In this document: positions 2,413-64,000 of the stretch, piece after piece
Layout of the letters: each line of letters begins with the position of its first letter
Numbering within the stretch: the first letter of the stretch is position 1
Assembly: GCA_027946365.1 (NCBI GenBank)
Contig: JAPEUQ010000012.1
Coordinates: 1-64,000 of the forward strand
DNA from: Kalmusia sp. IMI 367209
Taxonomy: Eukaryota; Ascomycota; Dothideomycetes; Pleosporales; Didymosphaeriaceae
Direction: 5' to 3'
DNA: 64,000 nt
Position numbers and translations under genes: made by a program
The notes under the pieces: generated by a model
Seen by the model: only the letters and a program-made list of their open reading frames with translations
What the model was told of the DNA's origin: nothing
The model's database searches: none

Positions 2413-5269
2413 AATAGATAAAAAGTTTAGCCACTAGTCTACATCGCCGAGCGGACCTAGGCCTACCTTATTTAATAATAAATTTATTATTAATAGAATA
2501 GTATAGAGGAGGAGCTACTTTTAGGGGTGAAAGACAGTAGAGTAGGTACTAAGTCCTACCCCTTATCCTTAGGGGTAAGCTGTAAGGAAAAGGAACTTTA
2601 AAGTAAAATATAATATATATTTATTTAATACTAAATCGCTAGCCACACTACCGCTGAACATATAAAGTCTAGAAGATAATATATAGTCTAGATAGTTTAT
2701 AGGGACTAGCACTCTTTATCTATATAGTAACTTTATACTATTTAGGCCGTCTAGACTAGTGAGGAACCACGCTAATTATCTAAGATTAGTAAACTTACTT
2801 TATACTATATTTTACTAATATCCTTTACCTCTAATATCATAAGCCTATAATAGTCTATATAGGGCTAGCTTACTTAGAATCTATGGGCCGGTAGAGTCTA
2901 ATAGTAGTTATTAGTCTAGTGGTGACTATTAAGGAGACTTAATATATTAGGTTCTTCTACTAATAATATTACTTATAAAGGCTGCGTAGCTTATCTAGAA
3001 TAAGGCTACTTACGTCATTATATGGCGACTCTCTATCTAGTACTACTTATAACCTATATTATAAGGTTTAGGTAGCGCCTTACTCTTTTATAAATCTATA
3101 CTTATATAATACCGTCTATATTCTAGGAGATAAAGACCTATACTATTAATACGCTATAGATACTCTTTATCCTTAGGTTAAGGTAGGTGTACTTAGCTCT
3201 TTAGGGAGTATCTTAAGTATTACCTCCATCCCCTCAGCCGTCTTAAGCGTTATCTTCATCCTTTTAGTTATTAATGACTACTCCTCTTTACTAGGACTAC
3301 CCAGCGTTTCTATATATTATTTAGAGATCTACTATTAGATTACTAACTATATTATTATAAATAGCTTTTAATCTACGCATTTTAACTAGAGTACTAGGTC
3401 GTTAATAACTTCTAGGATTTAATAGATAAATATATACGCGATTTAGGTAATTATTAATAAAAGATCTATACTAGTTATATATATCTCTCTAAAGGAAGTC
3501 GGCCAGGTATTTATACTAGAGAGCTGGCCCTATAAAGTCTATAATAATAAATAGCGTCTCCTCTACACCTTATACTTAAAGTATACGCTATAGGTATTTT
3601 TATATCTAACTAGATATTTATAGAGATAGTGCTTAAGCATTATACTAATATACTCCTTTTATTTTTATATATATAGTTAAGGACCCGTTACTAGAGGATC
3701 TATAAAATAGTTTCTACCTCTTCTTTATACCTTTCTTATAGTGTAGACACTAAGTCCTTTTATAATATAGGCTTGTTATTCTTACAGTTGAGGACCTAGT
3801 AGGCTCCTAGTTTAACTACTAGCTAATATATATTATTAAGATGCTTATGAGCTTCCCTTCCTACTTCCTAGTCTTAAGGAATACCTAGATGTTAATAAAG
3901 CGTCTACCTAGCTCTATAGATATCTATCTATATAAGCCATAATATATATCATTATTTACTATTAAGAAGAAGCCTCTTTAGTAACTACTAAATAGGTGAG
4001 GCTCCGCGTCGCGCTTAAGGCTAGGATAGAATAGGCCCTATACGTCACCTCTACTATATGTCTATAGTAAGCTGATTAGCTTATTTTAATTAGCTAATTG
4101 GACCACTAGTCCCCACCGGTCACGAATTTCTAAGATAAGCTTAATAACCTTATTAAAGATAGTAAATCAATACTACTAGTATCACTTAGTATAGGATAGA
4201 TAGGGGATTTTAGGCTAGGTTTACGCTTATATTATCTATCCTATAGCTTACCATCTATTTAAACGTAGAGATATTAAAGATTATCTATCTAATTGAGTAT
4301 AATACTATCTTATAATTATAGGGCTCCAATTGGTGTTCCGTCATAATATAGTTAGTTATTATATAGAAAACTTTACTTAACTACTAAGTCTAAGTTACTC
4401 TAGTATCTCCTACTTAACTAACTAGTTTAACCCTAGAATAGCTAGCTATTATTTAAGGATAGACTTACTAATTTGGTCCAGATCTAGCTATAGTTATCTA
4501 GAAGTATAGTATTCTCTTAATTAGCACGGAGCTTAATTCATAGGTATAATAAAAGTATATCTATCTTTTAGGATTAGCTTACCTTAACTAATATAAATAG
4601 GGGTGAAACTAATCTTTATTATAGATATTATATACCCACTAACGCTCTTCCTCTAGTAATTAAAAAATGTTAGAGATACTTTTAAAAGCTTCTACTTAAT
4701 AATAGCCTATAATAAGCTCTACCTTTTCTCTAATTATACTATTCTAGCTTTTAAATAATAATTACTTTATATTATCCTCATTACCACTCTCACCTAAAGC
4801 GACGGTAGTCTAAGTCTAGCCCTTCTAATAAAGATAGTCTAGTATCTACTATACTTACTTAAAGTAAGTAACCTATAACTAATAACTTATATCTTACTAA
4901 AGAATATCTATCTCTTTAAAAATCTTATAGAGGTGATACTTATGCGCTTCATTAATAGGTTGGTTAATACTAAGGCTTTAATCTAAGTTAAGCGCGTTAA
5001 TTAGAAATCTAGCTATTACTAGTTCATATAACGCAGCTTAATCATAGAGGAATCTACCTCTTTAACTTTCTTAATCATTATATATTACCTTTTTATTACT
5101 CTTATATTATTTATGTCTTTACGCTTTATGATAGGTAGCTCTAGGTACGATTAGATTAGAAGGTAAAGGGAGAGTGGGGTCTTTTTAAAATATAACGTTA
5201 ATTTTATAGAGTTATCATCTACTAAACTAATTAGGAGTAGGTTTAGTATTTATAAATCTATAGGTCTAG

Positions 5270-6110
5270 TTTAAATCTTTTACTCCTAAGGATAGTCTTC
5301 CGTAAAGTCTTTACCCTTAGGGGTAGTCTACTAGAGTCTTTACCCCTAGGGGTAGTCTTCCGCAGAGTCTTTACTTCTATGGTAGTCTACTAGAGTCTTT
5401 ACCCCTAGGGGTAGTCTTCTATAGAGTCTTTATTTTTATAATAGTCTACTAGAGTCTTTGCCCCTAGGGGTAGTCTTTTATAAAGTCTTTACTTTTATGA
5501 CTCTACTAGAGTCTTTACCTCTAGAGGTAGTCTACTAGAGTCTTTACCCCTAGGGGCAGTCTTTTATAAAGTCTTTACTCTTAGAGTAGTCTACTAGAGT
5601 CTTTACCCCTAGGGGTAGTCTTTCATAAAGTCTTTATTTTTATAGCTCTACTAGAGTCTTTACCCTTAGGGATAGTCTACTAGAGTCTTTACCCCTAGGG
5701 GTAGTCTTTTGTAAAGTCTTTACTCCTAGGGCAGTCTACTAGAGTCTTTACCCCTAGGGGCAGTCTTCCGCAGAGTCTTTACTTCTATAATAGTCTACCA
5801 GAGTCTTTACCCTCAAGGGTAGTCTTCTATAGAGTCTTTACTTCTACGATAGTCTGCTAGAGTCTTTACCCCTAGGGGTAGTCTTTCATAAAGTCTTTAC
5901 TCCTACGGCTCTACCAGAGTCTTTACCCCTAGGGGTAGTCTTTTATAGAGTCTTTACTTTTATGGTAGTCTGCTAGAGTCTTTACCCTCAGGGGTAGTCT
6001 TTTACAAAGTCTTTACTTCTATGGCTCTACTAGAGTCTTTATTTCTAAGGATAGTCTATCAGAGTCTTTACCCCCGGGGGTAGTCTTCTATAGGGTCTTT
6101 ACCCCTATAG
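5270..6110. repeat. Minisatellite, about 30-bp units
   Basis: Roughly 28 imperfect tandem units of about 29-30 bp, each holding the core AGTCTTTAC. Two alternating variants, one with the palindrome CCCCTAGGGG and one with TTCTATGG or similar, give a higher-order period near 60 bp. Its C and G content is higher than the surrounding RIP'd DNA. The repeat is degenerate at many positions. Confidence 0.88.
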
Positions 6111-7349
6111 GTCGTCCTTGCACTACTTTTTTCGCCTCTGGGGGGCAACCTAACCCTACCTTACTAGCACCGTTTCACCCCTAAGTATATAATTTAATAA
6201 GGGATTATAATAGGGATATTATAATAACTACTATTATATTAGTAAAAATAACACGTACGTACTATATAAATAATATAGTTAAGTTATAAGATAATTAGGT
6301 ACTAGAGGCGCTGTTTCAATAGTAATAGAAAGTAGGTATATATATATATTATAGATAAAGGGTTACTAATTCCGTATATATTTTAATATAGTAGTATTAT
6401 AGCTAATTATTTTTACTAAGAAGGAAAGTCTTCTATTAGAAAAGACTAGCCTCTAGACCGATGCTGGCACGGGGGTCTATAAATAATTATTTAATAGAGA
6501 TATAACTAAGATATATTCTAATAGTCTAGGTAGTAAGGACTATAATAAAAATAAATAACCTCCTACTTATTATATTAATATTTTTAGGAGATATCTATTA
6601 TATAGATATCTTAATTAATATAGGGTATAAGTGCTTCATGTGATTAGTCTAGAGATAGTAAAGATACTTACTATAAAGTATATAGTAATTCCCCTAAATA
6701 CTAGAGTAGATAGCTAAGGTATTACCTAGAGCTAAAATTATAGAGATAGTTATAATCTTCTATAATATTATAAGATGGTGCTAAATATTATATATATATA
6801 TAATATTAGAATTATATAGAGACTTAATATTAGGCTCCTATAACTAAATTAGTCTTAATTAGTAATAAATATCTATAAGGGAGAGATCTAGATCGGAGTA
6901 GTAGGGGACTTATAATTCTAAATATTAATATCTTAATAAGAAGATCTCTATATTAAGATATCCTTAAGGACGTAGACTATAAGCCTAACCTAAATCTAAA
7001 AGGAGAAACTATACTAAAGTAAACTTATCCTAATATTAATCTAAAATATTACTAAGATCTTAACTATTCTTCTACCTCTAGACGCTAGATATAGGAGACC
7101 TCTATTAAACCCTAAACTTACTAAGGATAGATAATATCTATTACTAGAGCTAATGACGTTTTAGAATCTATTTAATAAAAGAAGGCCTCTAGTTTATCCT
7201 TATATTAAGGATAATCTAACTATTATATCTATCTAAAAGTAAAGATAGATGAATTTATACTATCTTTACTATGGGGTCCCCTCTACGGTATATCAAGAAA
7301 ACAATTAATAGAATTATAAAAATAACTTATAGAGCTAATAGATAAGGGT

Positions 7350-22656: not shown

Positions 22657-24005
22657 TTATACTTTAATCTCATTCGAATGTGCACGTTCCAAGCTTCGAG
22701 ATGGCTTCTCTCGTACTGCGTGGTTTTTATCCCGTGACCCCCCTGAGGTGACACTTGAGTTACTGCGGACTGAGAAGATTTTTGATACGTTTTGGAAGAA
22801 AGTTTGCACGCCGGGAATTTTCGTACTGCTCGACAGTGTGGGGAGACATATGGCGCAAAGCCCGAACCCGGCCTCCATAATCATGAAGTATGTAGTGGCT
22901 GTCAGAATGTCTGTGAAGATATATTAACGCCTGGAACACGCATCACCAGAAAATATTGCGATACGTACTTCCTGGTCCGACGTCTGGATTGCCCACAACT
23001 ATTGAAGCTTAAGCAAATGTATGAGACAGTACAAGCAGGCTTAATGCTCACCCAATTCTTTAGTAACCTTCACCGCTTGTAGCAGAACCTCCAGTCGCAC
23101 AGCAGACATCGCAATAGTACTTGGAATGTCAGCGAGAGTTTTCCATGAAGTATTGGGGAGCTTACGCTGAACCGAGTAGGAAGACGAACGCTATGGCGAC
23201 CTTCCGAGCGAGGCTTATTTGCAATCGCGCGACCTATACTTCAAGTCAGCAGTAATAATATGGATTGGAGAAGGGGATGCCTACAAAAGGCAAAGGATAT
23301 AACACGATAAGCGCATCAGTCACCACGTCTGATATAGCAAATGACTGTTGCAGCATGTATGTGTCAGTTGTGCATTTGAGGTAGTCGCCACCTCGGCTCC
23401 ACAACCACTCCAGATGTGACAGACTCCCGCAGAATAAGAGGTTCGCCACTGTGAAGGAGATGCCCCATATGACCGTGATTACCATAAGCGACCATAAGAT
23501 GGCCTCTGCTACTCTGTAAACACCCGTTCTGAAGGCTCTATGATAGAACGCAAGACAGCTGAGCTTGATGAACCCAAGGGTTGCGGCAAGAACGACGGCG
23601 CTGGACCAATAGATCTAGTAATGCAGTTGGCCTCTATAAGTAGCCAGAGCCTTTGGGTATTTACCTTTCGATTAATGGTTAGCGTGCGGCTCTGATACTC
23701 CACGTAATTGAAGTTGTAATTCTCATCCGGATAACCCAAAGACTTTGTCGCGACTCCATAGATGATAGCGGCTGATAGACCGTATAGACAAATCTACGAC
23801 GCAATTGTGTCAGCACGATATGTGTTAGTATGTTCGGCTTGTGCCCCACCAAAGCTGGTAGTGAAAGCCAGTCGTCCCAACCAAGTCGGCTGTAAGCTCG
23901 TCTAGTCGCAAAGCGGGCACCGACAACAACAGTGCAGACGATGGGCCATATGATGCCAGCGGACCATAGATGTCCAGGATCGATATTGAGTGTTACGACG
24001 TTCAT
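22657..24005 (-). CDS. Fungal rhodopsin-domain integral membrane protein
   Basis: Six exons give a 334-residue seven-helix protein of the fungal rhodopsin-domain family (the large ascomycete group related to the Pth11-type 7TM domain); its ligand is unknown. Exons: 23,850-24,005; 23,665-23,793; 23,285-23,614; 23,166-23,233; 23,052-23,119; 22,657-22,910. All introns are GT-AG (46-56 nt, the last 141 nt) and keep frame. Family landmarks appear in order: an Arg-rich turn then LGWDDW after the first helix, LGFIKLSCLAFYHRAF in the middle, the late motif FVFLLGS, and MIEAG-like MIMEAGFGLCAICLPTL before the Ser-rich cytoplasmic tail. The start at 24,005 was chosen because residues upstream do not look like the family. 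It sits at the edge of the RIP'd block yet carries no nonsense change. No link to the peptide genes is proven. Confidence 0.8.
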
Positions 24006-24890: not shown

Positions 24891-25857
24891 TTACGTGTCG
24901 AGGAAATATTTGATCTGACTGAAGAACTTTTCCTTCTGTTCGACATGGGAAAAGTGTGCGGCGTTTTGAAACGTCACCCATTTAATCTTGGGTATACGAT
25001 CAAAGAAAGGCTGCATTGCGGCTTCTTGCACATACTCTTCTGATCCTCTTATTAGAAGTGTCGATGCATTGATCTGGTGAAGGCGAGGTATAATCGTCCA
25101 GTTCTCTAGCGAGCCTGATGGATCGAGTGTCGAGGGGCCGAACCTGATATTATACTTAAAATCTGATTCATATAACTTTTCTCAATATCTCGAACACTCA
25201 CATAGTGCGGTGCATCTCAGATGTAGCCATTCGAGACAGTGCTGGGGCTATCTCCTCGATCGGAAACGGCTTGCTAAGACTTAAGTGGTTTTGTGCGAAG
25301 ACAAGCATGGCGTTCTGGTACTCAGGGCTGGTGTATTCTTTACTCTCTAGTGCATGCCGCAAGGCTTCCTGCGCATCTTGAGGAAGGCCTTCCCGTACCT
25401 TGACTAACCCTTGGACATGACCCTCCATACTCGCGGGCACGCCGTATAGTATCAGTCGCCGTAGGTTTCCTGGGCGCGATGGTTCAGATGCCCATTCAGT
25501 CGCCAACATACCACCCCATGAATGTCCAAGGATGTCCAGGGGGCGGTCTGCTAAGCCGAGGTGTTCAATAAGATTGCTGAGCTCCTTGCAGAACAGTTCG
25601 GGGACCCAGAATTCTTTGTCTCCGTCTTTCTCTGGATACAGAGTAGAATTACCACAGCCCAGTTGGTCGTAAAAAATGACCAGGTCCGATAGAGTGTGTA
25701 ATGAGAGCAGGTATTCATGACCAGCTGCTGGTCCTCCGTGCAGAACAATCAATGGTATTTTGGTAGAATCTTTCAGGTCGCCAAAGACTTTGTACCACGT
25801 CTCGCACGGGGTCTCGATACCCTCAACAACGAACGGAGCTTTGCCTTCGATTGCCAT
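24891..25857 (-). CDS. Proline iminopeptidase-like alpha/beta hydrolase
   Basis: Two exons (25,202-25,857 and 24,891-25,143, with a 58-nt GT-AG intron) give 302 residues, the usual length of the proline iminopeptidase family (peptidase S33), which removes N-terminal proline from small peptides. Visible landmarks: the oxyanion-side HGGPAAGHEYL (about residues 40-50), DQLGCGNS (about 64-71), and the nucleophile elbow GHSWGG with the predicted catalytic Ser113. Exon 2 continues with the family-typical FGPS and a late region with SHVEQ, where the catalytic His is expected. Several acceptors are possible; only the one after ATATCAG keeps the family frame. No signal peptide, so probably cytosolic. 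It lies about 5 kb from the RiPP precursor. Trimming of a peptide product is possible but inferred. Family assignment is firm, substrate unknown. Confidence 0.85.
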
Positions 25858-26817: not shown

Positions 26818-28506
26818 ATGACAGACGAGGAAAGTTGCGCTGCTCCTCTGTCTTCTCCTCACGGAGAAATGTATGAGAAGGCAGCTTCTGAACAAGATTT
26901 CTCCCATGCCTCAGCGTCATCTACATGCCACCAAATGATGGATGAGTTTATACCACGACCACCGACAGAAGACGAGATTAAAGATTTACCTCATGTCATG
27001 ACGAATATACCCATTACTGCCTGGCTGCTGGTGTTTATTGGCTCCGCAGCAGCGTTTGCTAGATATGGCGTATCAACTACTTTTCGTACGTTTTACAGGC
27101 CTGATATATTGTACCCTCTAATTCGACCAGAAAACTATATCCAGAACCCACCCGGGAACTCGCAACTTCCTGGTGCTCTAGGCTTAGGCCAAGCAAAAGC
27201 CACGACTATCACGAGCATTTTCTCGGCTTTCGTGTTCCTCACACCACTCCCACTAGGAATTCTTTCAGACGGATGGCTTGGCCGATACAGAACGATGATA
27301 CTCAGTCTCGGGCTTCTACTCTTAGGATATAGTGTTTTAGTGGTCACGGCTATTCCAGCTTCCTTTCGGCATGGAGATAGCCTTGGGGGTTTGATAGCCT
27401 CTATGTTGCTCGTAGGCCTTGGTCAGGGCGGATTGTCCGCTGTCATGTTTGTTTTCATTGGTGATCAAATCCCAGATAATGGGATGATCGTCCAGAAAAG
27501 CCCCAAGGGAAAATCCGTGATACAAGATCGCAGCATCAGCATTCAATTCGTCTTCAACATTTATTTCTGGGCAACTAATCTGGCTTCTCTTTCAATTATA
27601 GGAACAACCATGATGGAGAGGGTCAGCTTTTGGTCCGCTTACTTGATGCCAACTGGTATTTTGGCTATCAGTATCGTACCTCTACTCTTATGGAGCTCGC
27701 GTCTTACCAGACCCCGACTTCAAAAGAACGTTCTGCGCGAAACCCTGCGAGTGGTGTATATCGCTTGTCGGAATAGGTTTCGTCTTTCTGCTGCCGTTCA
27801 AGCTCACCATTGCGACTCGGTCTTTGTAGACGAGCTTCGCAGCGGTTTAAACGCATGCCAAGTCATGATCGCTTTTGTTATTTTTTGGCTCTGCTACAAC
27901 CAGCTCTTCAGCAACATCGTCTCTCAAGCTGGTCAGATGGAACGAGTTGGGGTTTCCAACGACACAATAGTGTTTCTTAACGTCGCTGCCGTTGTTGTTC
28001 TGAGCCCTCTCATCCAGAGTTTACAAGCCTTACTCAGACGTTACAGGCTTTCATTCGGTCCTATACGGCGCATTACGGTAGGATTTGTTCTTACCGCAAT
28101 GGCCATTGCATACGCTGCTGGCTTGCAGAAACTGATCTATTCTCGCGGACCTTGCTACTCTCGACCTCTGGACTGTTCAGCAGCATATCAAAATGGTCAT
28201 TTACGGCCCAACAAAGTCAACATTTGGCTTCAGGCGCCAATTCATGTTCTTCTAGGCGCCGGAGAGATTTTGGCATATGTTTCAATGACAGAATATGCAT
28301 ATGCTCTATCTCCTCATAACATGAAGGCGTTTATTCAGGCACTGAATCAACTGACTGTAGCGCTAGGCTCTGCACTCTGTACAGCACTAGGACCGGCATC
28401 TCGAGACCCGTGGCTTATCACATTGTATAGTTGCTTGTCAGGCGTAATGGGGCTCAGTGCTGTACTCTTCTGGCTGGTGTTCAGGAGATACGACGATAGA
28501 GAGTAG
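26818..28506 (+). CDS. PTR/POT-family peptide transporter, atypical
   Basis: An intron-free frame of 562 residues with about 12 hydrophobic helices, a member of the PTR2/POT (SLC15-like) family that moves di- and tripeptides or related molecules with protons across membranes. Landmarks: a hydrophilic N-terminus of about 65 residues, then helix 1; LSDGWLGRYRTM; a GDQ segment followed by a long intracellular stretch, then FNIYFWATNLASLS, matching the family FYWxxNxGSL region; and near the C-terminus PIHVLLGAGEILAYVSMTEYAYALSP, matching the PQYxLIxxGEIFxSITGLEFAYxxAP region. The ATG at 26,818 is preferred over the in-frame one at 26,743 because the extra 25 residues are not family-like. Odd: the ExxER proton-coupling motif of helix 1 reads GSAAA. 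It may export or import a cluster product or its breakdown peptides (inference). Confidence 0.85.
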   Translation: MTDEESCAAPLSSPHGEMYEKAASEQDFSHASASSTCHQMMDEFIPRPPTEDEIKDLPHVMTNIPITAWLLVFIGSAAAFARYGVSTTFRTFYRPDILYPLIRPENYIQNPPGNSQLPGALGLGQAKATTITSIFSAFVFLTPLPLGILSDGWLGRYRTMILSLGLLLLGYSVLVVTAIPASFRHGDSLGGLIASMLLVGLGQGGLSAVMFVFIGDQIPDNGMIVQKSPKGKSVIQDRSISIQFVFNIYFWATNLASLSIIGTTMMERVSFWSAYLMPTGILAISIVPLLLWSSRLTRPRLQKNVLRETLRVVYIACRNRFRLSAAVQAHHCDSVFVDELRSGLNACQVMIAFVIFWLCYNQLFSNIVSQAGQMERVGVSNDTIVFLNVAAVVVLSPLIQSLQALLRRYRLSFGPIRRITVGFVLTAMAIAYAAGLQKLIYSRGPCYSRPLDCSAAYQNGHLRPNKVNIWLQAPIHVLLGAGEILAYVSMTEYAYALSPHNMKAFIQALNQLTVALGSALCTALGPASRDPWLITLYSCLSGVMGLSAVLFWLVFRRYDDRE

Positions 28507-29357: not shown

Positions 29358-30351
29358 CTAGCTCTTATTGTCAAACGGCCCTGGCTTGACGAAATACTCC
29401 CCTTTGGATAACATGCGTTCACGAGCCCACTTGTCTAGCTTCTCCCAATTAGTGCAAGCCTGCTGGGAGTTGGACCTCAACTCTTTACTTGGCCAAGATC
29501 CGTCTGCTGCAATCCAATAACCTGCATACAAAGAAGAATCTGCCTTGCACATAAGCGTGCGTCGCAGCGATTCGATGCAGTGCACTATAATCGAAGTTAG
29601 CTTTGCGCATGTTTCAATGGTTGGGCATCTACCTTGATGGTAGGTGTTGAAAGCCTCCTGCTCTTCAGTCATATTTGGAAAATAATAATCCTTGTGCATG
29701 TTCTTTCGGAGCCCGTCCTGCAGAAGACATTAATTAATCTGCGACCCTGTTATGACGCATGGGTGCAATGCCGAGCACTCACTAGGCAATGGAGCTCATG
29801 GTATGTAGCCAGAACGGCGGGATGACCTCCATCAGAGAGTTCCACTAGGTCATCGCTGAAATCCGCATGTGCTTGCATCAGATCCTCTTTGCTGGCTCTG
29901 ACATTTGATGCTACCTGGATTAGCAGCGTTTCATGATTATAATTTCCATGCATAACCTACGTTGTAAAAGATGGTGCCAATGGGTGTCTATGTCTTCTGG
30001 CTTGCCGAAATATCTTTCATCAAACTCATGGAACAAGAGTGGGTGAAGTTCGTGTGCGATGGCATTGTTGGCAGGAGCTATGCGTTTGTTAGAATGATGA
30101 CGTTTCGCAAGATGGCTTCGAGATCGCAGATTACAGTAAGGCTTTGGTATGCGCCAGATACTCTGGTATACCAACAGAGGCAGTGTGATGAGAATATATA
30201 TCGATGCGAGAATATTGAAACCAAGTTGGAATCGACGAAAACGCGGTGATTGTTTGCTGCGGTTGACACTTAGGTCATTCAAGAGGGGCTGATAAGACTC
30301 AGAGGAATCCGTAGAGGAATCCATAGAAGCCTTCATGTAAATTTTCTCCAT
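29358..30351 (-). CDS. UstYa-family (DUF3328) oxidase
   Basis: Four exons (29,961-30,351; 29,783-29,910; 29,633-29,717; 29,358-29,584) joined by GT-AG introns of 50, 65 and 48 nt give 276 residues. UstYa-family enzymes carry out oxidative cyclisation of ribosomal peptides (ustiloxin, asperipin, phomopsin) and, in some NRPS clusters, hydroxylation, chlorination or rearrangement. The layout is typical: a short cytoplasmic tail with YQPLL, one membrane helix (FNILASIYILITLPLLVY), then a lumenal domain with both HxxHC motifs, YHELHC at the exon 2/3 junction and YHQVHC, which is only complete after the third intron is removed. Both motifs are intact. The start at 30,351 is a choice; ATGs at 30,336 and 30,324 are also possible. 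It is divergent from the repeat-containing precursor gene, the arrangement seen in fungal RiPP loci. Localisation is probably ER/Golgi membrane. Confidence 0.88.
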
Positions 30352-30934
30352 GATAAGAGGTATGATTAGCAAGAAAATTATTCGATAGTTTGGAGGGAAA
30401 GTACGATGGTGAAATATGGATTTTGAATGGTGAATCATGACTTAGATCCCCCGGCCATCGAGTGCCGCGGAGGATCGACAAACTGACCACGACTGATCGA
30501 AACCGGTGGCGAAGCATACCCAAGGCAACTGTCACTTTATCAGCTTCCTTTTCTGTCATTGAATGCTGGTGATTCATTACGCAGCTGCATACCGAGCCTC
30601 TCGACGCTCACGAAGAACCCTCAAGATCGGGACGATGCCTGTTTGCCCCGCCCTGATCGCGCTTCATGCAGAGCAGGCGCTCAATCACTTATTACTTTGG
30701 TCCCTACGAGGGTGGCAACTACGTGCGGCAGGCACAAACCAGTAAGCTAATCTAGTTGCGCAACGATGGGCGTAATCTAGAAATCAAGAATCACTACAAA
30801 TAGGCCCGAATCTTCCTCTACTGTAACATCTCAATTCTTTTCTCTACCATCCAAACTCAATAGTGTGCACCTATCCTCTGGATTTGGTACCCTTCACTTG
30901 TCGGTTCTTGTTCACGCCTAAGACATTCGGCAAG
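30352..30934. promoter_or_regulatory. Bidirectional promoter of the RiPP pair
   Basis: 583 bp separate the two divergent starts. On the precursor side a pyrimidine-rich tract (about 30,810-30,860) precedes the ATG, as is common for expressed fungal genes, with a TATA-like ACAAATAGG near 30,796. No transcription-factor site can be assigned. Open frames inside are not supported. Confidence 0.5.
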
Positions 30935-31308
30935 ATGCAGTCATACATACTGTTTGTGGTACTAGGGCTACTTCAGAGCAGCACTACTGCCTCTCCAATG
31001 GGTATTTTGCTACAAGAAACCACATGTCTTCTAACATGCGCTTATAGACCACAGACAATATCAACACTCGCACCTCTTCAGAGTTCATGCTATCCAATGC
31101 TGATGGTGCTAGTGTCCGACGTACGGCACCAGAGCTGATCCTACCCGATGCTGGCTTGGTTACGGAGTCAAAGGATCGTCGCGCTGCTCCAAAAGTGATC
31201 CTCCCCGATGCCGGCTTGAGTACCGGGGAGAAGCATCGTCGCACTGCTCCGGAGGTCATCCTTCCTAACGCTGGTATTAAGGAATCATTGAAGATGATAA
31301 GGGATTAG
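30935..31308 (+). CDS. Secreted repeat precursor peptide (RiPP/KEP type)
   Basis: Two exons (30,935-31,001 and 31,055-31,308, with a 53-nt GT-AG intron containing the branch-like CTAAC) give 106 residues. Residues 1-20 are a classic signal peptide (hydrophobic ILFVVLGLL, then small residues and ASP). A spacer of about 24 residues follows, then three imperfect repeats, each preceded by the dibasic RR: RR-TAPELILPDAGL, RR-AAPKVILPDAGL and RR-TAPEVILPNAGI, with variable acidic/polar linkers. This is the layout of Kex2-processed repeat proteins that feed fungal dikaritin RiPPs. It faces a UstYa-type gene across a shared promoter. The consensus core contains no Tyr, Phe, Trp or Cys, unlike characterised dikaritin cores. 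The alternative is an unmodified secreted peptide. No homologue is recognised. Confidence 0.85.
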
Positions 31309-33690: not shown

Positions 33691-34445
33691 GCATGTCGTA
33701 ATACCACGCCTCTTCGGCGGTTCAAGCTCCTCTTTAGTTATACTAGATGTTGGCTCCTATCTTAGTAGGTCAAGTAATTCGATGCCCTAGTATCTATTTT
33801 CGCATAAATATACCCTCACCCAACACAACCTTAATTCTAGGGTGATCCAATCCAGTCTCCTCGTGCGTGGACCCAGGCCAAAGTAATGGGTTCGGCGGTA
33901 AGGGTACGGAAATTACACTCTCTACTACGGCTATCACTCAGCTCGTCACTAGAGATGTAGGCTGATTTTTACCACCTAGACATGGCTCCACCTAGACATG
34001 GCTTAAATACTATCCAGTGTATTACTTATTACAGTTTTTGCCTTACTATCGAACGTAGAGGGAATAATTAGTACCTAGCTATATTTATCAATGATCTGGA
34101 TAAATGTTAAGGGTATATATAAAAGTAAGATATAGGTAATAAACTATACTACCTTCTTATCTCTCTACAAGGCTTTAAATACTTAGATGGTAGTTAGAGA
34201 AAGTGAGGTTTAGATAATAAGAGACGGATGGTTAATAGAGATGATTTAGCTAAAGCTTGTAGCCTTGGCCAAAATATAACTATATGTAACTAAGAATGTA
34301 TAGCTAAGTATTAAGTTTCCTAAATAGGCCCCTTTACTTATACTTAGGGGCTATATAGATTCAATTTTAGACCTTCTAATATATATTTAGAATTAGATTA
34401 AATATCTCTAAGAGTAACTTATTTTTAGTTTAGGCTAAAGTAGTG
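33690..34445. repeat. Second, smaller RIP-affected AT-rich tract
   Basis: Base composition turns TA-rich with few CpA dinucleotides, similar to the left block but less extreme. No coding potential is seen. It directly abuts the broken GH92 gene, whose N-terminal part is missing. Confidence 0.6.
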
Positions 34446-35319
34446 ATGTTGCGGTGTCTATCAATCGGTCTGCCGAGTGGCAGAAAACGTGGAGTCGCAA
34501 CACTACATCTTTGAACTTCACAGGCTTCCTGGCGCCTACATACAGGAATGGCAGCATCAAGGAAAACGATCCACTCTCGTGCGGCAGCTACGACTGGCAG
34601 TCAATCAGCTATGAAGGCGTTCCATGGGAGTACAGCTAGTCGATACCGCACGATATAGAGAGTGTGATCATGCTGATGGGTGATGCAGATATAGCTGAGA
34701 TGAGGCTAGATACAATGTTCATTCCTGGTCTGACTTAATCGAATCAAGGCGGTAACAGCGCAGGCTCTACGATCTTCAATCCTGGTAATGGTAATTTCTC
34801 CCCTATCCGGATAATGTACATCAAAAGCAAATGAACGGTGTTTCAGAACCATCCTTCATAACACCCCTCTTGTACAATTACTGGCCACAACGACAATCCA
34901 AATCCGCCAAACTATCCCGCGACCTTGTCGACCAGTACTACAACAACGGCCGCTCTGGTATACCTGGGAATGACGACGCAGGTGCAATGAGTAGCTGGCT
35001 GGTGTGGAACATGATTGGGCTGTACACTGTCGCTATTCAACCAGTGTATCTGATTCTCGCCCCACGGTTTGCAGATATTACAATAACACTCGGTAATGGC
35101 GGCGCGGTTCTGAGGATCAGCGTGAACGAAGTGGAGAGCGGGCCATATGTTCAAATTCTAAATGTAAACGGAAAACCCTGGAATAAGAGCTGCATCATTC
35201 GCGAGGATATTGTAAGGATTGATGGTCGCGATAGTACGTTGGAATTTAACATGGGTGCGGAGCCCGTGTCTTGGAATTCCGGTGAAGTACGACCTAGCCC
35301 TGGGCATGTAACGATATAA
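34446..35319 (+). pseudogene. GH92 alpha-mannosidase, C-terminal relic
   Basis: Only the C-terminal part of a glycoside hydrolase family 92 (calcium-dependent exo-alpha-mannosidase) survives. Visible signatures: SAEWQKTW and CGSYDWQSISYEGVPWEYS at 34,454-34,639, and the strongly conserved catalytic-loop relative GNDDAGAMSSWLVWNMIGLY at about 34,966-35,025, followed by the terminal beta-sandwich to a stop at 35,319. Between them the frame is interrupted by TAG at about 34,638 and TAA at about 34,737, and a frame change occurs near 34,790. About 500 N-terminal residues are absent, replaced by AT-rich DNA. The stops are C-to-T type, as RIP would make. It faces the 3' end of the NRPS. Confidence 0.85.
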
Positions 35320-49200: not shown

Positions 49201-52200
49201 GCAGTCTGGACCGCTATCGGAACCGTGGTCAGTGTCGGGCCAGCAATTACTTCGATTCCGGGTATCGAGACGTTTCGACCGCTGAGAGTGCTACCGAACG
49301 TTACATTCGTGGATCCCGAGTACTGGGCGAGGGTCAATGCCCAGGCACCACGGACGATATTCGAAGCCGTTACTGTCGATCTCGCATCCCACGACACTAG
49401 TGCGCGATGGCGGACACTTGAATCGGCAACAGGTTGGTATTGAGGGTGAGGTAGAGGCGGGAAGCTCTCATAGTTCGAGGTGTTGTTGATTATTTGGGAC
49501 TGCCAGAAACCTCGAGCAGCCTCGTCTTGTTCAGTCGCCCTCACATTCGAGATGAAGATGTTGTAATCCTGCAGCGGTGCGGGAGACATGTCTTCCTCGT
49601 AATAGCATTGGATTCGGTCAAAGATCATAGCAAGCGTCCAGCCATCATAGAGGCCATGATGCGCAGTGAAGACTAGGTAAATGCTCTCATTTGTGTTTAT
49701 GAGAGCATATCGGGCCAATTCATCGCCCAGACGAACTGGTGTTTGGCAATCGGCTGCCAGGTAACCATTGAGGTCGTCCGAAAATGACCACTGCATCTCT
49801 GTGCGAACCACAACCTGAAGGAAGCCATCCGTGCTAGCCTGGATGAAGCGAGTACGCAGGATACCCATATCCTCGCGAGTCCGGGCCCAGGCTTGTTGGA
49901 AACGAGAGACATCGAGGTTAGCAGAAAGCTTGTGGCAGCTTTGCATCATGTAGGCGCCATTCTCCTTCAGAGAAAGCGCCATCAGACCCTCCTGTAACGG
50001 ACTGCAAGGGTAAACGTCCTCGATCTGGTCCACCGAGATATTGCAAGCTGCGGCAGCCGCTGCTTGGACGTCGCCAACCAAGGGAGTACTCTCCGACCAA
50101 CGCATAAGGCTCGATAACGGTCGAGACGCCATCGTCGCTTTCCATAATCCGCTCGCAGCTCAAGGCCATCTTGGATAGAGTAGGGTTCTGGAAGATTGTC
50201 GCAACCGTCAGTCGTATACCCTTGTACCGAGCCATCGCTACGAGTTGCATCGCCCGGACGGAGTCTCCTCCAGAATTGATAAAGTTATCATCAGCTCCAA
50301 TTATACTACGATTTAGATGCAGTATGTCAGCCCAAAGCTCCTGGAGGACAACTTCCATTGGGCTTGACGGGGCACGCTTGGGGATCTTGTCGTTGAAGCA
50401 ACTCGTCAGTTCCTCGGCGGTCAATTGCTCGCCTAATTGGAGGAGCAAACGACGATCCGTCTTGCCGTTAGCTGTAATAGGGAATGCGCGCAAGGGAATG
50501 TATGCAGAGGGAAGCATGTACGGTGCCAACTGTGCCATGAGACCTTGCTCCAACTCAGGAATTCGCCTGGCGATGGTGGGCATAGCGGAAAGATGGAGAT
50601 CAACGCTCCCATTGACGCTATTTGAACCGGGGCAGATGAAGCAAGCGAGAACTCCTTCTCCTTGACGGTACTTTGGGTGGATGAGCTGGGCGGCCGATTG
50701 CCAGTGCGCGGGCAGCAGGCGCTGGACATGATGCTCCACCTCACCGAGCTCTAGGCGTTGGCCGCGCAGTTTAACCTGCGTGTCCTTGCGAGCGGCGAAA
50801 CTGATACTGCCATCAGGATTCTGTCGCACTAAGTCACCCGTCTTGTAGAACCGACGGGGCAGGGTCTGGGTCTGGGACGAACCCTCCGGGCAGGATTGTT
50901 GTCCAGGTGGGATTGGTGATGAAGGCGGCCTGGGTTTTGGTGGAATCATTAAGGTAGCCCCGAGCCAAAGTTGGTCCTTCTACCAGAAGCTCACCCACAC
51001 ATCCAATTGGCACAAGCTTGTTGTGGTCTGCGACGTTGGCGATCCAGAGCGAGGCTCCGACAGGATGACCTATATTCGCAGGGTCAGCGTCATGCTGTAG
51101 TCCGGGCCGGCACGAGCACCAGATGGAGCATTCTGCGGGCCCATACGTGTTGATCAAGCACAGTTTATCGTGCCACCTAGAAATATTAGTGTAGGTTGCA
51201 TGCTCGCCTCCTAGGGCTAGGGTCTTGAGGGTGGGAACTTCTCCCGCTTGTAATAACTCAGCCACCGTGGGAGTCAAGAAAGACCAGTTCACTTGCAGAT
51301 CGTTGATAGCCTTTGCCATATTATTAAAGCGGTCCTCTGGCGATGGGACACACACAGTCCCGCCCACCATTAATGTGGTGAAGATTTCGCCATTGCTGAC
51401 GTCGTACGTGTAAGCCGAGAACTGGAAGACACGGGAGTCAGGTCCGATGCGGAGCGCCAGAGCATGGGAGTGGACGCTAGAGCTCATCGCGCGGTGCTCA
51501 ATGATGATTCCCTTTGGCACGCCAGTACTACCTGAGGTAAAGAGTATGAATGCCGGGCTGTCTGGTTGCGCGCGGTGGTTTAGGCCTAGCGGCATGGTGG
51601 TAGAGGAGCCTTTCATATCCTTGAGGATGGCAGAATCCACGATGATGACTTGATCCACGATCCTTGATATTAATTCAGCATGCTCGGGAGCTGTAGCAGC
51701 AACTGTAGCTCTGCAATCACGGACAAGGCCTTCCAAGCGAGCTATCGGGTGTTTGGGATCCAACGCAATACAGGCGCCTCCTGCTTTCAAAACTGCCAGC
51801 ATGGTGACCACGGTCCAACCAGACTTGTCGAAGCACAGGGGAACGAAGACATTAGGCCCCACGGACGCGGCTCGGAGGCGCTGCGCAACGAAGCTGGAGA
51901 TGCGATCCAACTCCACGTAGGTGAAACGGACGTCCCAGGCGCAAACTGCTTCCTTGTCTGGGTTTGCCAGAGCCTGTTCGGCGATTATATCGTGGATACA
52001 GGTGTTGATCATTTCAGGACAGTCACCATTCCATGCTACCAACTCAGTGACATCGTGAGGATTGATCGAGCAAACAGAGTCAACTAGCTGGGTTCGGTCG
52101 CCCAATACTAAACAACAAAGTGTGTGCTCAAAGTGCCGCAAGATACGCTCCATCTGGGATGGGGCTATCACACTGGAGTCGAAGTGAGCACTAATCTTGA

Positions 52201-55200
52201 TTCCGCTCTCTGTAAGGCCACACTCGACCACAAGGGGATTTTCGAAGAAGCCGTTAGGAAGCTCGATACGAATAGGCTCTCTAAAAAGCAGGGAATCCTG
52301 GCTAATGTCCCACTGCTGCTGTATGACAAGGATATTCTGGAAGGCTGATGCCGCGCGAATCTCCGGGCTAATGTGCTGAATCTGCTGCAAACCAGTCTGT
52401 TCATGCTTCATCATTCTCGTGGCCTGTTCCTGGCAGGCCTGCAGATATTCATCAACTGACTTGGCCCCGTCGATCCGTGCACGGACTGGCACTGTGTTCA
52501 ATGTTGGACCCAGGATCCGGTCGACGCCTAGAAGAGCCATGTTTCGCCCATTGACCGTCAGGCCGTAGACGAAATCATCTGAGTTGGAGTACTGCGCAAC
52601 GACTAAGCTCCATGCTGCTCGGATAAATGTAGACTGAGTGAAGGAGTCTGACTTGGTTTGGTCCCAACCTGGTACTTGGCAGTGCCGATCGAGTCGCGAA
52701 TCGCTGGCTGGTTGATAGTTTTCAGAGGGGAGGCGGGGGAATTGATCACCGCTACCTCCAGATAGCTCTGAAGTCCAAAAGGCGTTCGATTCTGCTTCGT
52801 CACCGTCCTGAAGAGACTGGATGAAAGTATTGAAGGGTGTAAATGCAGAAGCCTGCCCAGTCCTATACTGATTCTCTACCATTTCTAGCACCAAAGGAAG
52901 CATCCACCCATCATAGATGGCATGATGTAGGGTCCACACGAACAAGTTCGCACCATCTGGCAATTTCACACACGCATACCGGGTCAAGGGGTCTCCAGTA
53001 CCCATTGCCGTCTCACGGTCCTCAGCTAGATAGGTGTCGAAGTCAGTACACAACTTCCAATTCGCGGGTTCATCGATGAGGACCGCTTGCAGTAGCCCAT
53101 TCTGAGGGCTTTCGAAGAGTCTCGTCCGAAGAATAGGTACCTCACGGATGACAGTGGACCAAGAACGCTGGAATCGCATAATGTCGATATCGGAGGGCAG
53201 GCGGAAGGGGATTTGGACAATGTATGCGCCCTGCCGTTTGACTGACAACGCCATCAATCCTTCCTGGAGGGGAGAGGATGGGTAGATGTCGTCAATAGCG
53301 GTGGATCCGCACAGAGAATTCATTGCCTGCCCCTTGATGCTCTCGATCTCGGAAGAAGGCAGGAGGGAGAACGGCTGGACATGGACAAACTCGCTGATAT
53401 GTCCCATTCGCAGCGCCATGTCGGCGAGAACGGGGTGGTCGAAGATTGCTGGCACTGTGAGGGTGATTCCTTGTTCTCGGGCAGCGGCAACCAGCCGAAC
53501 AGCCGCAATGGAGTCGCCTCCGAGCTCAATAAAATGGCTGTTTGACTTAACATGGGCAATATCTAGCCGCAGACACTTGACCCAGAGGCTCTGAAGCTGT
53601 TTCTCACGGGGATCGGTAATCTCCCGTCTCTCCTTGCCGCGGACAGAACAGGACAAAAGATCCTCCGCCGTGAGCTGGTTGCCGAACTCACGCAGCTTCC
53701 GACGATCTGTCTTTCCGGCTGCTGTCAGAGGCATATGCTCGAGGGGAATGTAGATGGTCGGGATCATATAAGATGGCATCCACTGGGCTAGATCCTTGGC
53801 GTATGTTGAGCAACCCTCCAAGACCATCTCAACGGCAAAAACGTCGAGCGCAAGGTCATCCTGGTACGTTTTATTATCGACGGAGACAAAACCTGCAAGC
53901 ATCGCGTCACCTCCCCGGTGCTTGGGCTGGATGACTTGCGCGGCGACCTTCCACTCCTTGGGCGCCAGTCTCTGCAGATTATGTTCTACTTCAGCCAGCT
54001 CAAACCGCTGGCCTCGCAGCTTAACTTGTTGATCCTTCCGACCAACATAATGCATTGTGCCATCCGCATTGAATTGCATCAGGTCTCCAGAGCGATAGAC
54101 ACGAGCTGGACCCGCCGCAAAGTCCTTCGCCCATACGGGTTTTTCAATGAACGAAGCATCAGTCTTCTCGCGGTTGTTCAGGTACATGCGGGCGAGAATG
54201 GGCCCGCCGATCAACAACTCTCCTACACAACCAACGGGGAGGAGACGTTGGGGGTCATTGATGTCCGCAATCCACGACGTGCACCCATAGCTGCGACCGA
54301 TGGTATCCGCCCGAAATCCCAGCTTCTGAACCGTGCTTCCATGACTGATGATGGTTGTCTCTGTTGGGCCATAGGCGACGACGATGGTGGTGGAGGAATG
54401 GCCCCAGATAGAAACTATATCCTCTCCAACGCGCTCACCACCGACGAGGATGTGCTTCAACGTAGGGACCTTGGTCGGGTTGATGTGACGAGCGACAGAC
54501 GGGGTCAACAGCGTCCAGGTGATGCGCATGCGATTGATCACGCCTTCAATGTCAGAGAGACGGTCCTCCTCCGAAGGCATGCAGACACATCCACCATGGG
54601 CAAGAGTTCCCATCATCTCGGTCAAACTAGCGTCGTATATGTAGGGCACGAACTGGAGAACACGCGAGTCAGAGTTCAGACCAAGGCCCTTACCGTGTTT
54701 CATGATGCTAGTGCAGAAGGCTTCGTGCTCGATCATAACACCCTTTGGTCGACCCGTAGTCCCGGAGGTGAAGATGATGTACGCCAGCGACCTTGGCTGT
54801 ACTCGTGGCAGGGGATGGGTAGAGCCCATCCGGGCAATATTCTGAGGAGATACTTCGACCATTGTCTCAACCAAGCCTTTACAAATGTCCATTTGAGCGG
54901 ATGATGCCACCAAGATCTTGGCTTGTAGATCCTCAATGATCATCTTTCTTCTCTCTTCCGGATGGGTTGGATCCAAGGGGACGAAGCCTCCTCCAGCCTT
55001 GAGGACCGCCAGCATTGCGATAATAACCCATGATGTTTTCTCGAAACAAAGCGGAACAGCTGTCTCAGGGCCGACTCCCAACTCAGCCAGATGGCGCGCA
55101 AGACTAGTCGACAAGTCATCTAGTTGTTTGTAGGTGAACTCACCATCCCAAGATTCGACCGCAGGAGCGTCAGCACGAGTCACGGCATGTTGAGAAATAA

Positions 55201-58200
55201 TATCATGTAGACATCCATCCACTGCCTGAGCGCCTTCTTTGTTCCACTCCTGCATACTTCTCTTATGAAACGAATCGACAAGATCCAAGTCACCAATCTG
55301 AAGGTGTGGTGTCTGGACTAGGGAATCGATTGCTTTGCTGAACGTACTGGCAACGTGAACAGCCAGGCCTTCACTAATATGTGATTCCCAGTGACTGAGA
55401 GACACTTGGACCTCTTCTCGACCGAACTGTCTCACATTGACAGAAACGTCATACTCAGTAGTTTCACGCCCAACAACACCCCTGAACACAATATCACCCC
55501 CTGACAGAGCTGCGGTCTTGGAAGGATAGACCTGACAGGAGACAATGGAGTTGAATAGATTCTGATTGCTCATGTTGAGAGCTTTTTGGATCTGCCCAAG
55601 TGAACATCCTTGATGATCCAGGCTTTTAGTGAAACTTTCTTGCAACTGTGCCATGACTTCCGCAAGGGTCATAGTGGGCGTCACGTCAAGACGATACACG
55701 AGCATATTGATGAACAGACCAACAGCCTCCTCAATGTCAGGGACAGGAATGTCACGGCCAGAAGTTAAATAGCCGAAGCACACCTTGTCGGTGGCAGCAT
55801 AGGCACGCAAAACCAAGGCCCATGCCGTCTGGATAAGGTTGGGCACCGTGACACCGCCGGCTTCGCAAGCAGCTATTAGTTCCGCAGAGCTGTCGATATT
55901 CACTGTGATTGTTTTCATTGTGCGAGGATTATTGAAGTTTTCGTTCAAAGTAGGGAAATGGCAAGGCTCAATTCCCCGAAGATAATCAGTCCAGTACGTG
56001 AGATCTTTCTCCGAATCGCGATTGTTGATATATTCGATGAAACCGCTGTATTTAGACCCAGGTGTTTCGGAGAGAGCCCCATTGTAGGCGCGGAGGAGCT
56101 CCTGTTGCAGAATGGGTAATGATGTCCCATCGATGACGACATGGCTGATTTCTAATTTACAGAAGACGGATCCTGCGTGGTTCTGGCAGAGAACAAGCTG
56201 ATGAGGGAGCCCAGAGCCGGTGAACTTCATGGGGTGTTGAGCTTCCAATGCGGAGAACGCGTCCTGATGAGCATCTAGCACGACGATGCGAGCTTTTGGA
56301 GTTCTGGCAACGACCTGATCAAATAGTCGATCATCGCACACGGCATCGACGATAGTGGTTCGCAGGATAGGATGGCGGTTAACGACCTGCTGCCAGGCAT
56401 TCGCGACCCGATCAACAGTCACTTCTGTCTTCTTGGATATCGGAGCAATCTCCCAAATTAGGCGTACTTCGTAGTTGCCCGTCCTCCTTGCTCCCCCGAG
56501 GAGCAGGTTTGTCTGCATAGGAGAGCACGGGTAAACGTCTTCAACTTCAGAGACATGTCGGATACCAATATGTGGCAACCGCTCGTCGACCAACGTTTTC
56601 AGATCGGATGAGGTCAACTCGAGCAGCGGGAAATCAGAGGACGTGAGCTCCAACTCCATATTCCCCAAGGTCTGAATAGTCTTACAAAGTACACGCTCAT
56701 ACGCAGCGATCCAGGAGCAGATCTGATCTTGGTACTTCATATCCTTGTTGTAGGTGACAGTAATCTGCATCTTGCCCTCCTCAACGACCGCAGTAATGTC
56801 AAACAGGGCCGTCCGGCGCATTTTTCCACTGACAACACCAATACCATTGGAGATGGATGCATCGACCCATTGTGGTTGCTGGAATATGCTCCTTTCGGCT
56901 TCATCGAGTCGATAGACACCTGCATAGTTGAACAAAACCTCCATATTCTCGTATTCGCCAGATACTTCTCGTCCATTGGGATGCAAGTACCGCGAAGCGA
57001 AGTATGACCAGCCATTAGTCTTGAGTGAGCGGCGAGCATCCTTCGTCCTTCGCACGGTTTCAATCAATGACTGTCCCTTCTCCACAGTCACGGCAATCGG
57101 GGCAATAGTGGTGAACCACCCGATAGTCCGAGGAAGGTCAATTGATTCATCCCATGCCTCGCGTCCATGTCCTTCATTGAAGATGGTTGGTGGCTGACGG
57201 TTTGTAAATATCTCCAGGAAGGAATGCGTCAGTGAGGATAGGAGGATATCGAGAGGCTGCGTCCGCAAAGCTTCGTTTGCAGGGCCAAGCAAGACGGCAG
57301 TTTTCTCCGCATCCAACGTGAATCGAGCAGTAACTGAGCCTTGGTACTTGTTCCCTGGACCATCTAGTCCCCAGTAAGAGTACGCTTCTACAGGGACAGC
57401 AAAATTCCCCGTGCCACTTGGAGGCAGGTGTTCGGAGGCATACTCGCGTTGCATATGTTGCCAGACCTGAAAGGAAATGGGTTTGTCGCTATGTAGGGAG
57501 CCGCTCTGGAGAACCTCACCCAGATCTTCCAGCAGGATGCGCCAAGAGACCAAGTCAATTACCAGGTGGTGAGCGGAGAAAAGGCATCGCTGTTCCTGGC
57601 CAATGCGAACGAGATCGACGGTGATCAAGGGTCCGGTTTCAATGTCCAGCTTGGTCTGACTCTCTGCAACCAGAGCAGGAATCTCCTCATCAGCATACAG
57701 TATCGACTCGATCACCCTGTACGAGCTCCTGACGTCACCCGTAATCATTTGGGTCCAGACCCCGTTTTTAGCCTTCTGGAATCGCGCTCGTAGCATTGAA
57801 TGCTGGCCGACCACAGCCTCCAAGGCCCTGTTCATGTCATTGAGAGTAACTGGCCTAGAAATGCGGAATAAGGCGCTCTGGTTGAAGTGGTTTTCACCCT
57901 CTGGTACGAGATCGAAGAAGAGTTGCTGAATAGGAGACAGCTGGAAGGGCTTCTCAACCGCCTCTTCAGCGAAGATAAACTGGTTCGCTCCGGTCTTTTC
58001 AATGCGCTCTGCAAGTGCTGCAATGGAAGTACTGTGCAGGACCTCGGCGAATGTCGTGGATATGCCTTGTTGCCGACTGAGGGCAACCACCTGCATGGCT
58101 GACATCGAGTCACCCCGAAGGCTCATGAAGGAGCGATTGAGGCAAATTCTGTCAGCTGGTGTATCCAGTACCCGAGTCCAAATATCCACCAGCTGTTTCT

Positions 58201-62560: not shown

Positions 62561-64000
62561 TGCGAATTGCTATTGAAATCGAAATCTAATGTGAAATGTA
62601 GTAGTGGTACATGCAATAAGGATTGGTATATAACTGCACATATAAAACGTAGGGCTCTGTGGCGTGTCCTGAAGTTTCAGAATGAGATGGCTTCACTACC
62701 TGCAGTTTTCTGGAGAATTCCAGAGCCGCAAGCTGATATGCGAATCGACTTCAGAAAGACTGGAGAAGTTCGAGTATTCGAACATTCAACTGGTCAGGGC
62801 AAAGCATATATCAATGATATATCGACTCCATGGCTGGATCATAGGCTCATTTCAGCTTTGGTAGCCCGCGTAAGCAACGAGCTCAGACGGTGGACATTTG
62901 CAAGGCGTGCCCAAAGTCCCCCTCGTGTGCGGCGCGGAGTGAACCTAAACTATCTTGAGCAAACCTTAGCGGCGTGAATGCGCAGCTTAGACTCAGGTCG
63001 AGCATGCGCAGCTTAGACTTACGCACGAAACAGAGGCCACCAATATGAGCTCATCGTAGAGACCGAAGATATTGCTAACGAAGCTCCTCGGGCCGTAACC
63101 CCTCTCAGCCCCGAAGACCACGGACACGATGCTCCATACTCAGAAACCAATTCGCAGGTTTTTGTCACCAGCCACTATTGGTCAATTCGAACATGACAAT
63201 ACCTTGGGCTCTTACAACGCTTACGATTACGTACATTCCTCGCACCTCGCAATCACAGCAGTAGAGCTACAGTAAGCTTACCTAAGCTTGCGGAGCGGCA
63301 GAGCTACAGTAAGCTTACCTGTAGAAAATCTCGAGCTACCACCCTGCCGGGGCCGGCCTCGCTTCATTAGCCCCATTTTGACCCCATCCAAGCCTCCTCT
63401 GGCAAACATCGGAAACACGCTTTTTGCATTAGTTCGACGGAAAGGGAACTACCTTCACGCCTATCCCGGTGTCATCAAGAAATTGACGTATTGCAGACAT
63501 ACCACAGACAAGCATAGATACTAGACTTGCTCACAAAGGTGTCGCAACAGCGTTAAGATCAACTTCCTTTGCCCAGGATGCTCGAAGAGAGCCCCTGAAT
63601 ACGGTATCATTAGAAATTCATTGATGAGTAGGTTGACTTCTAATACGATTGCCGATGACACGCTTGTGCATAAGCTAACTGCATGCATAAAAGCTCTTAA
63701 GATGTCAGCAGGCTGACGATACCTAAGAAATTGGTCTGTATCAGGTAGCCTGACCAAAGTCCCATCACTCGGAAGGATTTTCACTAGGCTAGCTAGAAGT
63801 GACTTATGTGGTATCAGCCTTACAGTGCCTTAATATAGGCTAATTAGATCCCGTTAGGTGACTCAATTCAGCCTCTCCTTACATGAGTTTTATTACGTGC
63901 CGTGGCATAGCTATGTAGTTAGCTATTGGGAGACGAACAGTGCTGCTTGTTCATCAAGATATTAAACGAGATATCAAGTCTACTGCAGGTGGATCTGCTA
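62561..64000. promoter_or_regulatory. NRPS upstream region
   Basis: The NRPS promoter must lie here. A TATATA-like stretch occurs about 65-75 bp upstream of the start (62,625-62,632 on this strand). Two short direct repeats are present: TGCGCAGCTTAGACT at 62,979 and about 63,005, and GAGCTACAGTAAGCTTACCT at about 63,265 and about 63,302. Open frames of 60-136 codons on either strand match no family. No cluster regulator is visible. Confidence 0.45.

Follow-up and report, generated by a model that had tools for sequence, protein, structure and literature searches.

Tyr is the residue through which the ustiloxins, phomopsins and asperipin-2a form their rings (PMC7329392), and DUF3328, the family of UstYa, is reported as the class-defining dikaritin enzyme in the broad sense (PMC12048977). 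Secretory entry of the precursor and release of its repeats by Kex2 are known for the KEP class, and 1758 of the 7878 KEPs in the survey of Umemura 2020 are stated to have a neighbouring DUF3328 gene (PMC7329392). CctR, the DUF3328 hydroxylase of the cyclochlorotine pathway, is described as a binuclear copper, O2-dependent enzyme that requires the conserved His and Cys residues of its HxxHC motifs for activity and performs aliphatic C-H hydroxylation of a non-ribosomal peptide, and the same report credits the family with halogenation, hydroxylation and macrocyclisation at C(sp3)-H positions (PMC12435403). In phomopsin, the DUF3328 proteins PhomYc, PhomYd and PhomYe have been assigned to the formation of dehydro-Ile, dehydro-Asp and dehydro-Pro (PMC10880069).

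The locus considered here lies in a window of 64,000 bases, positions 1-64000 of contig C4 (1,400,169 bp), in the 42.8 Mb genome of Kalmusia sp. IMI 367209. This fungus belongs to the Pleosporales, family Didymosphaeriaceae. The preliminary description had placed a UstYa gene divergent from a three-repeat precursor gene at 29358-31308, and splicing, Pfam and homologues confirm this pair, whose gene structures were read from the sequence (Table 1). It had overlooked a hydrolase gene and a POT transporter gene beside the pair, as well as a paralogous cluster elsewhere in the genome, and the unit probably reaches as far left as 24891, beyond the interval first described. We consider it probable that these are a four-gene RiPP cassette in which peptides freed by Kex2 undergo aliphatic oxidation by UstYa, and in which the transporter and hydrolase handle the product.

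The locus resembles dikaritins in its signal-like start, its tandem cores between dibasic sites and its UstYa protein with two HxxHC motifs. Unlike the ustiloxins, phomopsins and asperipin-2a, it has a core without Tyr, a POT transporter and an iminopeptidase-like hydrolase, and none of the 37 tyrosinase (PF00264) matches in the genome falls on contig C4. Since the core contains no Tyr, Trp, Phe, His or Cys, classical Tyr-ether chemistry cannot apply. The earlier label 'dikaritin-type' thus holds in the broad sense, as a precursor with Kex2-type repeats adjoins a DUF3328 gene both here and at the paralogous cluster on contig C6, but not in the sense of a Tyr ether. Judged from its sequence, the locus is a DUF3328-associated RiPP cassette, and KEPs with a DUF3328 gene nearby form a known and common class.

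Bases 1-22000 of the window are AT-rich (22-34% GC) and have RIP-like indices (TpA/ApT 1.54; (CA+TG)/(AC+GT) 0.25), so that the cassette adjoins a contig end affected by RIP. The window also holds a fungal rhodopsin-domain fragment, probably decayed, at 23249-23614 (minus strand), and a remnant of a glycosyl hydrolase family 92 (GH92) gene at 34439-35319 (plus strand), between the precursor and a giant NRPS.

Table 1. Predicted features of the cassette and of the adjacent NRPS, in window coordinates
Feature	Position	Strand	Details
Alpha/beta hydrolase, proline-iminopeptidase-like	24891-25857	-	302 aa; proposed intron 25201-25144; GHSWGG
POT/PTR2 family proton-coupled peptide transporter	26818-28506	+	562 aa, one open frame; PTR2 E 8.8e-49
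UstYa/DUF3328 oxidase gene	29358-30351	-	exons 30351-29961, 29910-29783, 29717-29633, 29584-29358; 276 aa
Second motif, HQVHC	29577-29639	-	interrupted by intron 29632-29585; exists only after splicing
First motif, HELHC	29786-29800	-	read in spliced UstYa
Divergent intergenic region	30352-30934		583 bp, start codon to start codon
Precursor gene (KEP/RiPP precursor)	30935-31308	+	exons 30935-31001, 31055-31308; 106 aa
Precursor exon 1, signal-peptide-like stretch	30935-31001	+	absent from public model N0V90_009998
Repeat 1	31117-31176	+	RR-TAPELILPDAGL-VTESKD
Repeat 2	31177-31236	+	RR-AAPKVILPDAGL-STGEKH
Repeat 3	31237-31308	+	RR-TAPEVILPNAGI-KESLKMIRD, then stop
Giant NRPS	35575-62569	- (frame 50834-62569)	roughly 27 kb

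The precursor and its divergent oxidase

The spliced precursor has the signal-like start and the three repeats attributed to it earlier, and the repeats are of Kex2 type: a hydrophobic beginning (mean Kyte-Doolittle value 2.3 over residues 4-14, with P0001 and P0005 alike; the signal peptide was judged by eye) is followed by a short pro-region and three units spaced 20 residues apart, with the core consensus (T/A)AP(E/K)(L/V)ILP(D/N)AG(L/I). As in the DUF3328-associated KEPs described by Umemura 2020, there are at least three tandem repeats of at least 8 residues between dibasic sites (KR, KK, RK or RR; here three units after RR), a DUF3328 gene within 15 genes and, judged by eye, a putative signal peptide, whereas 65.6% of the repeated sequences in that set are reported to contain Tyr and the window core contains none (PMC7329392). 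The computed [M+H]+ of the linear cores is 1209.6725 for TAPELILPDAGL, 1164.6986 for AAPKVILPDAGL and 1194.6728 for TAPEVILPNAGI; with their linkers the values are 1868.9851, 1803.9963 and 2295.2740.

The only intron of the precursor gene (31002-31054; 53 nt, phase 1, GTATTT..CTAAC..ACAG) has exactly the coordinates proposed in the preliminary description, and the splicing is supported by a homologue from Periconia macrospinosa (P0001, 106 aa), which is 86% identical over its full length, signal-like start included. Two rounds of searching against about 5.8 billion proteins, the second of which scored at least 7992 candidates, yielded at least five homologues (P0001, P0003, P0004, P0005 and P0009) besides the locus's own record, P0002; among the matches listed, the second round (alignment A3) contributed P0009 alone, a 53-aa record with two repeats. 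The signal-like start is missing from P0003 and P0004, which seem to open with translated intron sequence. Across the five homologous proteins the core is maintained and leader and linkers vary: when the window protein is aligned with P0001, P0003, P0004 and P0005, all share APELILPDAGL in the first core, and P0005 has a much shorter and different leader as well as different linkers. The Arg-Arg said to precede each repeat does so in the window but not throughout the homologues, where His-Arg stands before repeat 3 of P0001 and Lys-Arg before repeat 1 of P0005.

The warning that such a precursor is easily missed proved apt. The public protein N0V90_009998 corresponds letter for letter to window positions 30666-30741 joined to 31055-31308, so that the model begins at an upstream ATG and omits the signal-like exon; it would be expected to drop out at the signal-peptide step of the Umemura 2020 survey (PMC7329392). 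The suggestion that the product may be undescribed is also supported, in that the string ILPDAG is absent from the literature searched, which comprised the main texts of non-subscription papers. Among the papers listed within the same scope none describes a cassette of UstYa, PTR2 and iminopeptidase; DUF3328 appears in two of them, one on lichen RiPPs and one on the transcriptome of a banana pathogen, the latter naming DUF3328 clusters and oligopeptide transporters separately in the text available.

The three 12-residue window cores are under purifying selection. Specifically, synonymous-site differences amount to 48%, 77% and 80% for pairs 1-2, 1-3 and 2-3, against 12%, 16% and 19% at nonsynonymous sites (Fisher P 0.024, 0.0006 and 0.0013, from rounded counts), and over Arg-Arg plus core the differences at codon positions 1, 2 and 3 are 3, 0 and 7, 3, 0 and 11, and 4, 0 and 9 for the three repeat pairs. 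The linkers differ heavily at synonymous and nonsynonymous sites alike. The repeats are old, and their peptide has been retained. Repetition of this kind is also rarer in shuffled sequence: among 5105 ORFs from 20 UstYa loci and the window, six have three repeats and 13 have two, two of the six being opposite strands of a single locus (L019), whereas 20 residue shuffles of the same ORFs gave none with three repeats and six with two. Away from UstYa genes, a small sample made up of the stretch L032 and the remainder of the window contained no repeat precursor. The antisense strand of the window precursor also scores as a two-repeat ORF, which was not counted as a precursor.

The divergent gene encodes a UstYa-family protein with both HxxHC motifs, as had been read from it before. 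The product matches Pfam UstYa (PF11807) with 129.5 bits against a curated cut-off of 25 (E 2.2e-37), HELHC is intact in the spliced reading, HQVHC is restored when the introns (29960-29911, 29782-29718 and 29632-29585 on the minus strand) are removed, and the N-terminus has, by eye, one hydrophobic, transmembrane-like stretch. Three relatives were returned at E up to 1e-5 from 417 candidates, none of them from Periconia. P0006 (253 aa) is 70% identical over 97% of the query and continuous across all three joints, in P0007 (Phaeosphaeriaceae sp. PMI808) the third intron is retained as coding sequence, and P0008 continues into the first intron. An alternative first intron, 29956-29898, was rejected, and the acceptor at 29911 preferred to that at 29898, because P0006 retains the residues in question (PSNIRASK, within LEPSNIRASK). 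P0006 matched no solved structure, and an AlphaFold2 model of it built from three aligned sequences was set aside (pLDDT 35.7).

A second cassette and the other UstYa loci

A search of the genome found the best paralogues of UstYa, the PTR2 transporter and the hydrolase each at one place, C6:215-219 kb. UstYa matches there in two pieces, C6:218760-218987 (50% identity) and C6:219174-219476 (48%), the hydrolase at C6:217820-218446 (51%) and C6:217502-217759 (52%), and PTR2 in four pieces inside C6:215195-216985 (49-58%). The lead of C6 over the next place is clear for UstYa (88.8 against 70.7 bits) and the hydrolase (212.9 against 145.9 bits) and small for PTR2, whose best piece scores 268.9 bits at C6, 262.3 at C30 and 256.7 at C11, with three further matching pieces at C6. 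In the C6 UstYa model, which has the motifs HELHC and HLTHC, the N-terminal part is uncertain and a further intron likely there; only the C-terminal part was relied on.

Divergent from the C6 UstYa gene is a precursor of 106 aa (C6:220387-220763, or 5888-6264 of stretch L033), with a signal-like start and, just behind it, a 56-nt phase-1 intron at the same position and in the same phase as that of the window gene. Its four units follow KR, KR, KR and RR and comprise GIPDPPLWDGEL once and SSPVPPLWDGGV three times; each pair of the three identical units shows six synonymous and no nonsynonymous codon differences. The question of whether relatives of the repeat protein lie next to UstYa genes is thereby answered once, by a diverged precursor in the same genome. 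The first window core and the main C6 core have 4 of 12 positions in common (P3, L7, D9 and G11), for which a permutation P of 0.007 was obtained post hoc, on a single core pair picked after inspection. The third window core shares only two to three of 12 positions with the C6 cores, and the cores of four further repeat precursors close to UstYa genes of the genome share none to two with the window or C6 core. As far as can be read from the gene models, precursor, UstYa, transporter and hydrolase are kept together in two diverged copies, and this recurrence of the whole set, in diverged form, suggests a joint function.

This arrangement bears on the giant NRPS, which begins 4.3 kb from the window precursor and whose product UstYa might tailor, as DUF3328 proteins are described to do with the non-ribosomal peptide of the cyclochlorotine pathway (PMC12435403), the adjoining repeat precursor then being a coincidence. 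We regard this as highly improbable. All four genes are kept at C6, a contig that holds none of the 52 condensation-domain matches found in the genome, so the NRPS is probably only a neighbour; the GH92 remnant, moreover, separates it from the precursor, and beyond it a weak match to a WelO5-like oxygenase and an MFS fragment could be its own partners. A recent recruitment at C4 is nonetheless conceivable. The two candidate partners lie at C4:65-68 kb, the MFS fragment at 1060-1659 of L032 and the oxygenase/halogenase match, below cut-off at E 0.0005, at 3637-4137. The NRPS frame 50834-62569 opens with a TLC (TRAM_LAG1_CLN8) domain followed by a carrier protein, an unusual fusion if real.

The genome contains 102 exon-level UstYa matches, from which 20 loci were read as 10 kb stretches, in addition to the window and to L033 and L034, which were picked for PTR2. 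Precursors with at least three units were present at four of the 20 (L014, L019, L024 and L026) besides the window and L033, with repeat types KRTNIYPGIKYLGDED ten times at L014, DEDAAKYGKR 17 times at L024, APTVDEGFSK six times at L026 and KRAAPVEFAGISYSRL three times at L019, where the hit is open on both strands. Two-repeat hits at L007/L018, L012 and L028, in two L019 frames and in one NRPS frame were not counted as precursors. The cores at these four loci contain Tyr or Phe and that at C6 contains Trp, so that aromatic chemistry is possible at C6; the window core alone has no aromatic residue. PTR2 matches in the genome merge to 11 loci, of which three (on C4, C6 and C30) lie within 10 kb of a UstYa match, and two of the three TIGR01250 loci above 100 bits sit in the C4 and C6 cassettes. 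By contrast, the L014, L019, L024 and L026 stretches contain neither a PTR2 nor an iminopeptidase (TIGR01250) match, which indicates that these are not general partners of such precursors. At L034 on C30, PTR2 and UstYa are present and the scan found no repeat precursor; a signal-peptide-like ORF without repeats near them (L034 5218-5577, minus strand) could be a single-core precursor.

Candidate chemistry and fate of the product

The precursor could alternatively give an unmodified linear secreted peptide, a hormone- or signal-like KEP, with UstYa acting elsewhere or not at all. Most KEPs (6120 of 7878) are reported without a DUF3328 neighbour (PMC7329392), the window core lacks aromatic residues, and X-Ala follows the Kex2 site in its repeats; according to Le Marquer et al., STE13 signatures (X-Ala/X-Pro) are tied to hormone-like peptides and absent in cyclic-peptide precursors (PMC6339444). 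The direct divergent neighbourhood with UstYa, seen again at C6, argues in the opposite direction. So does the Pro that follows X-Ala in the window repeats, since dipeptidyl aminopeptidases of the STE13 kind cut poorly before Pro. Annotated fungal pheromones, in addition, are described as almost never adjoining DUF3328 genes (PMC7329392), and we judge a linear, unmodified product to be quite unlikely.

In the four-gene RiPP cassette that we favour, the signal peptide would direct the precursor to the secretory pathway, where a Kex2-type protease would cut after Arg-Arg to give three peptides carrying the core. The membrane-anchored UstYa protein, with its HxxHC motifs in the lumen, would then oxidise the freed peptides, most likely through desaturation, hydroxylation or other C-H oxidation at aliphatic positions such as Ile, Leu, Pro or Asp. 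Like CctR, the window protein is a DUF3328 member with the pattern HxxHC(x)nHxxHC and a transmembrane-like helix (PMC12435403), and by this analogy it may use a two-copper centre. Finally, the POT transporter and the iminopeptidase-like hydrolase would process the product or its fragments, in recycling, self-protection or signal uptake. The gene structures, protein families, selection on the cores and paralogous cassette are read from sequence, and what we infer is the copper chemistry, by way of family members, the cleavage by Kex2, where and how the peptides are oxidised, and what the transporter and hydrolase do.

Oxidation of aliphatic C-H bonds, by desaturation or hydroxylation, appears more likely than a Tyr-ether ring because the core has no ring-forming Tyr and does have consecutive Ile, Leu, Pro and Asp, and because PhomYc, PhomYd and PhomYe, of the same family, set a precedent with Ile, Asp and Pro as their assigned targets, all of which occur in the window core (PMC10880069). 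The window core itself is presumably unrelated in sequence to that of phomopsin. Could UstYa instead macrocyclise the core by a backbone link or one between non-aromatic residues, or halogenate it? The reactions at C(sp3)-H positions credited to the family (PMC12435403) would encompass both outcomes, and the present data favour no one reaction. Nevertheless, either outcome seems unlikely. A core that lacks aromatic residues is not known to give rise to any characterised macrocycle.

The first exon of the hydrolase scores 124.8 bits against TIGR01250, under the model cut-off of 167.65, and the protein matches solved proline iminopeptidases with E 1.5e-35; as no signal peptide is evident, it is probably cytosolic. 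POT transporters import small peptides. Together with a hydrolase that has no obvious signal peptide, this makes uptake and cleavage of proline-containing pieces the simplest role for the pair. A bolder version would see a distinct RiPP subtype, defined by a positionally fixed, largely aliphatic core (x-x-P-x-x-x-L-x-D-x-x-hydrophobic), a dedicated UstYa branch and, in both copies, a POT transporter and a probably cytosolic proline iminopeptidase, which would take the product up again and cleave it. The core pattern is common to the two diverged clusters of this one genome, and we hold the subtype to be doubtful; if it were true, production and uptake or self-protection would be encoded together.

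The wider significance is threefold. A wrong gene model, like the public one here, can conceal a precursor from surveys based on signal peptides. Paired paralogous cassettes suggest which genes belong to a cluster, a frequent uncertainty in fungal RiPP mining. Lastly, while the best-known UstYa products are Tyr-crosslinked, a conserved core under selection that lacks aromatic residues and adjoins one UstYa gene offers a clean test of other chemistry in this family.
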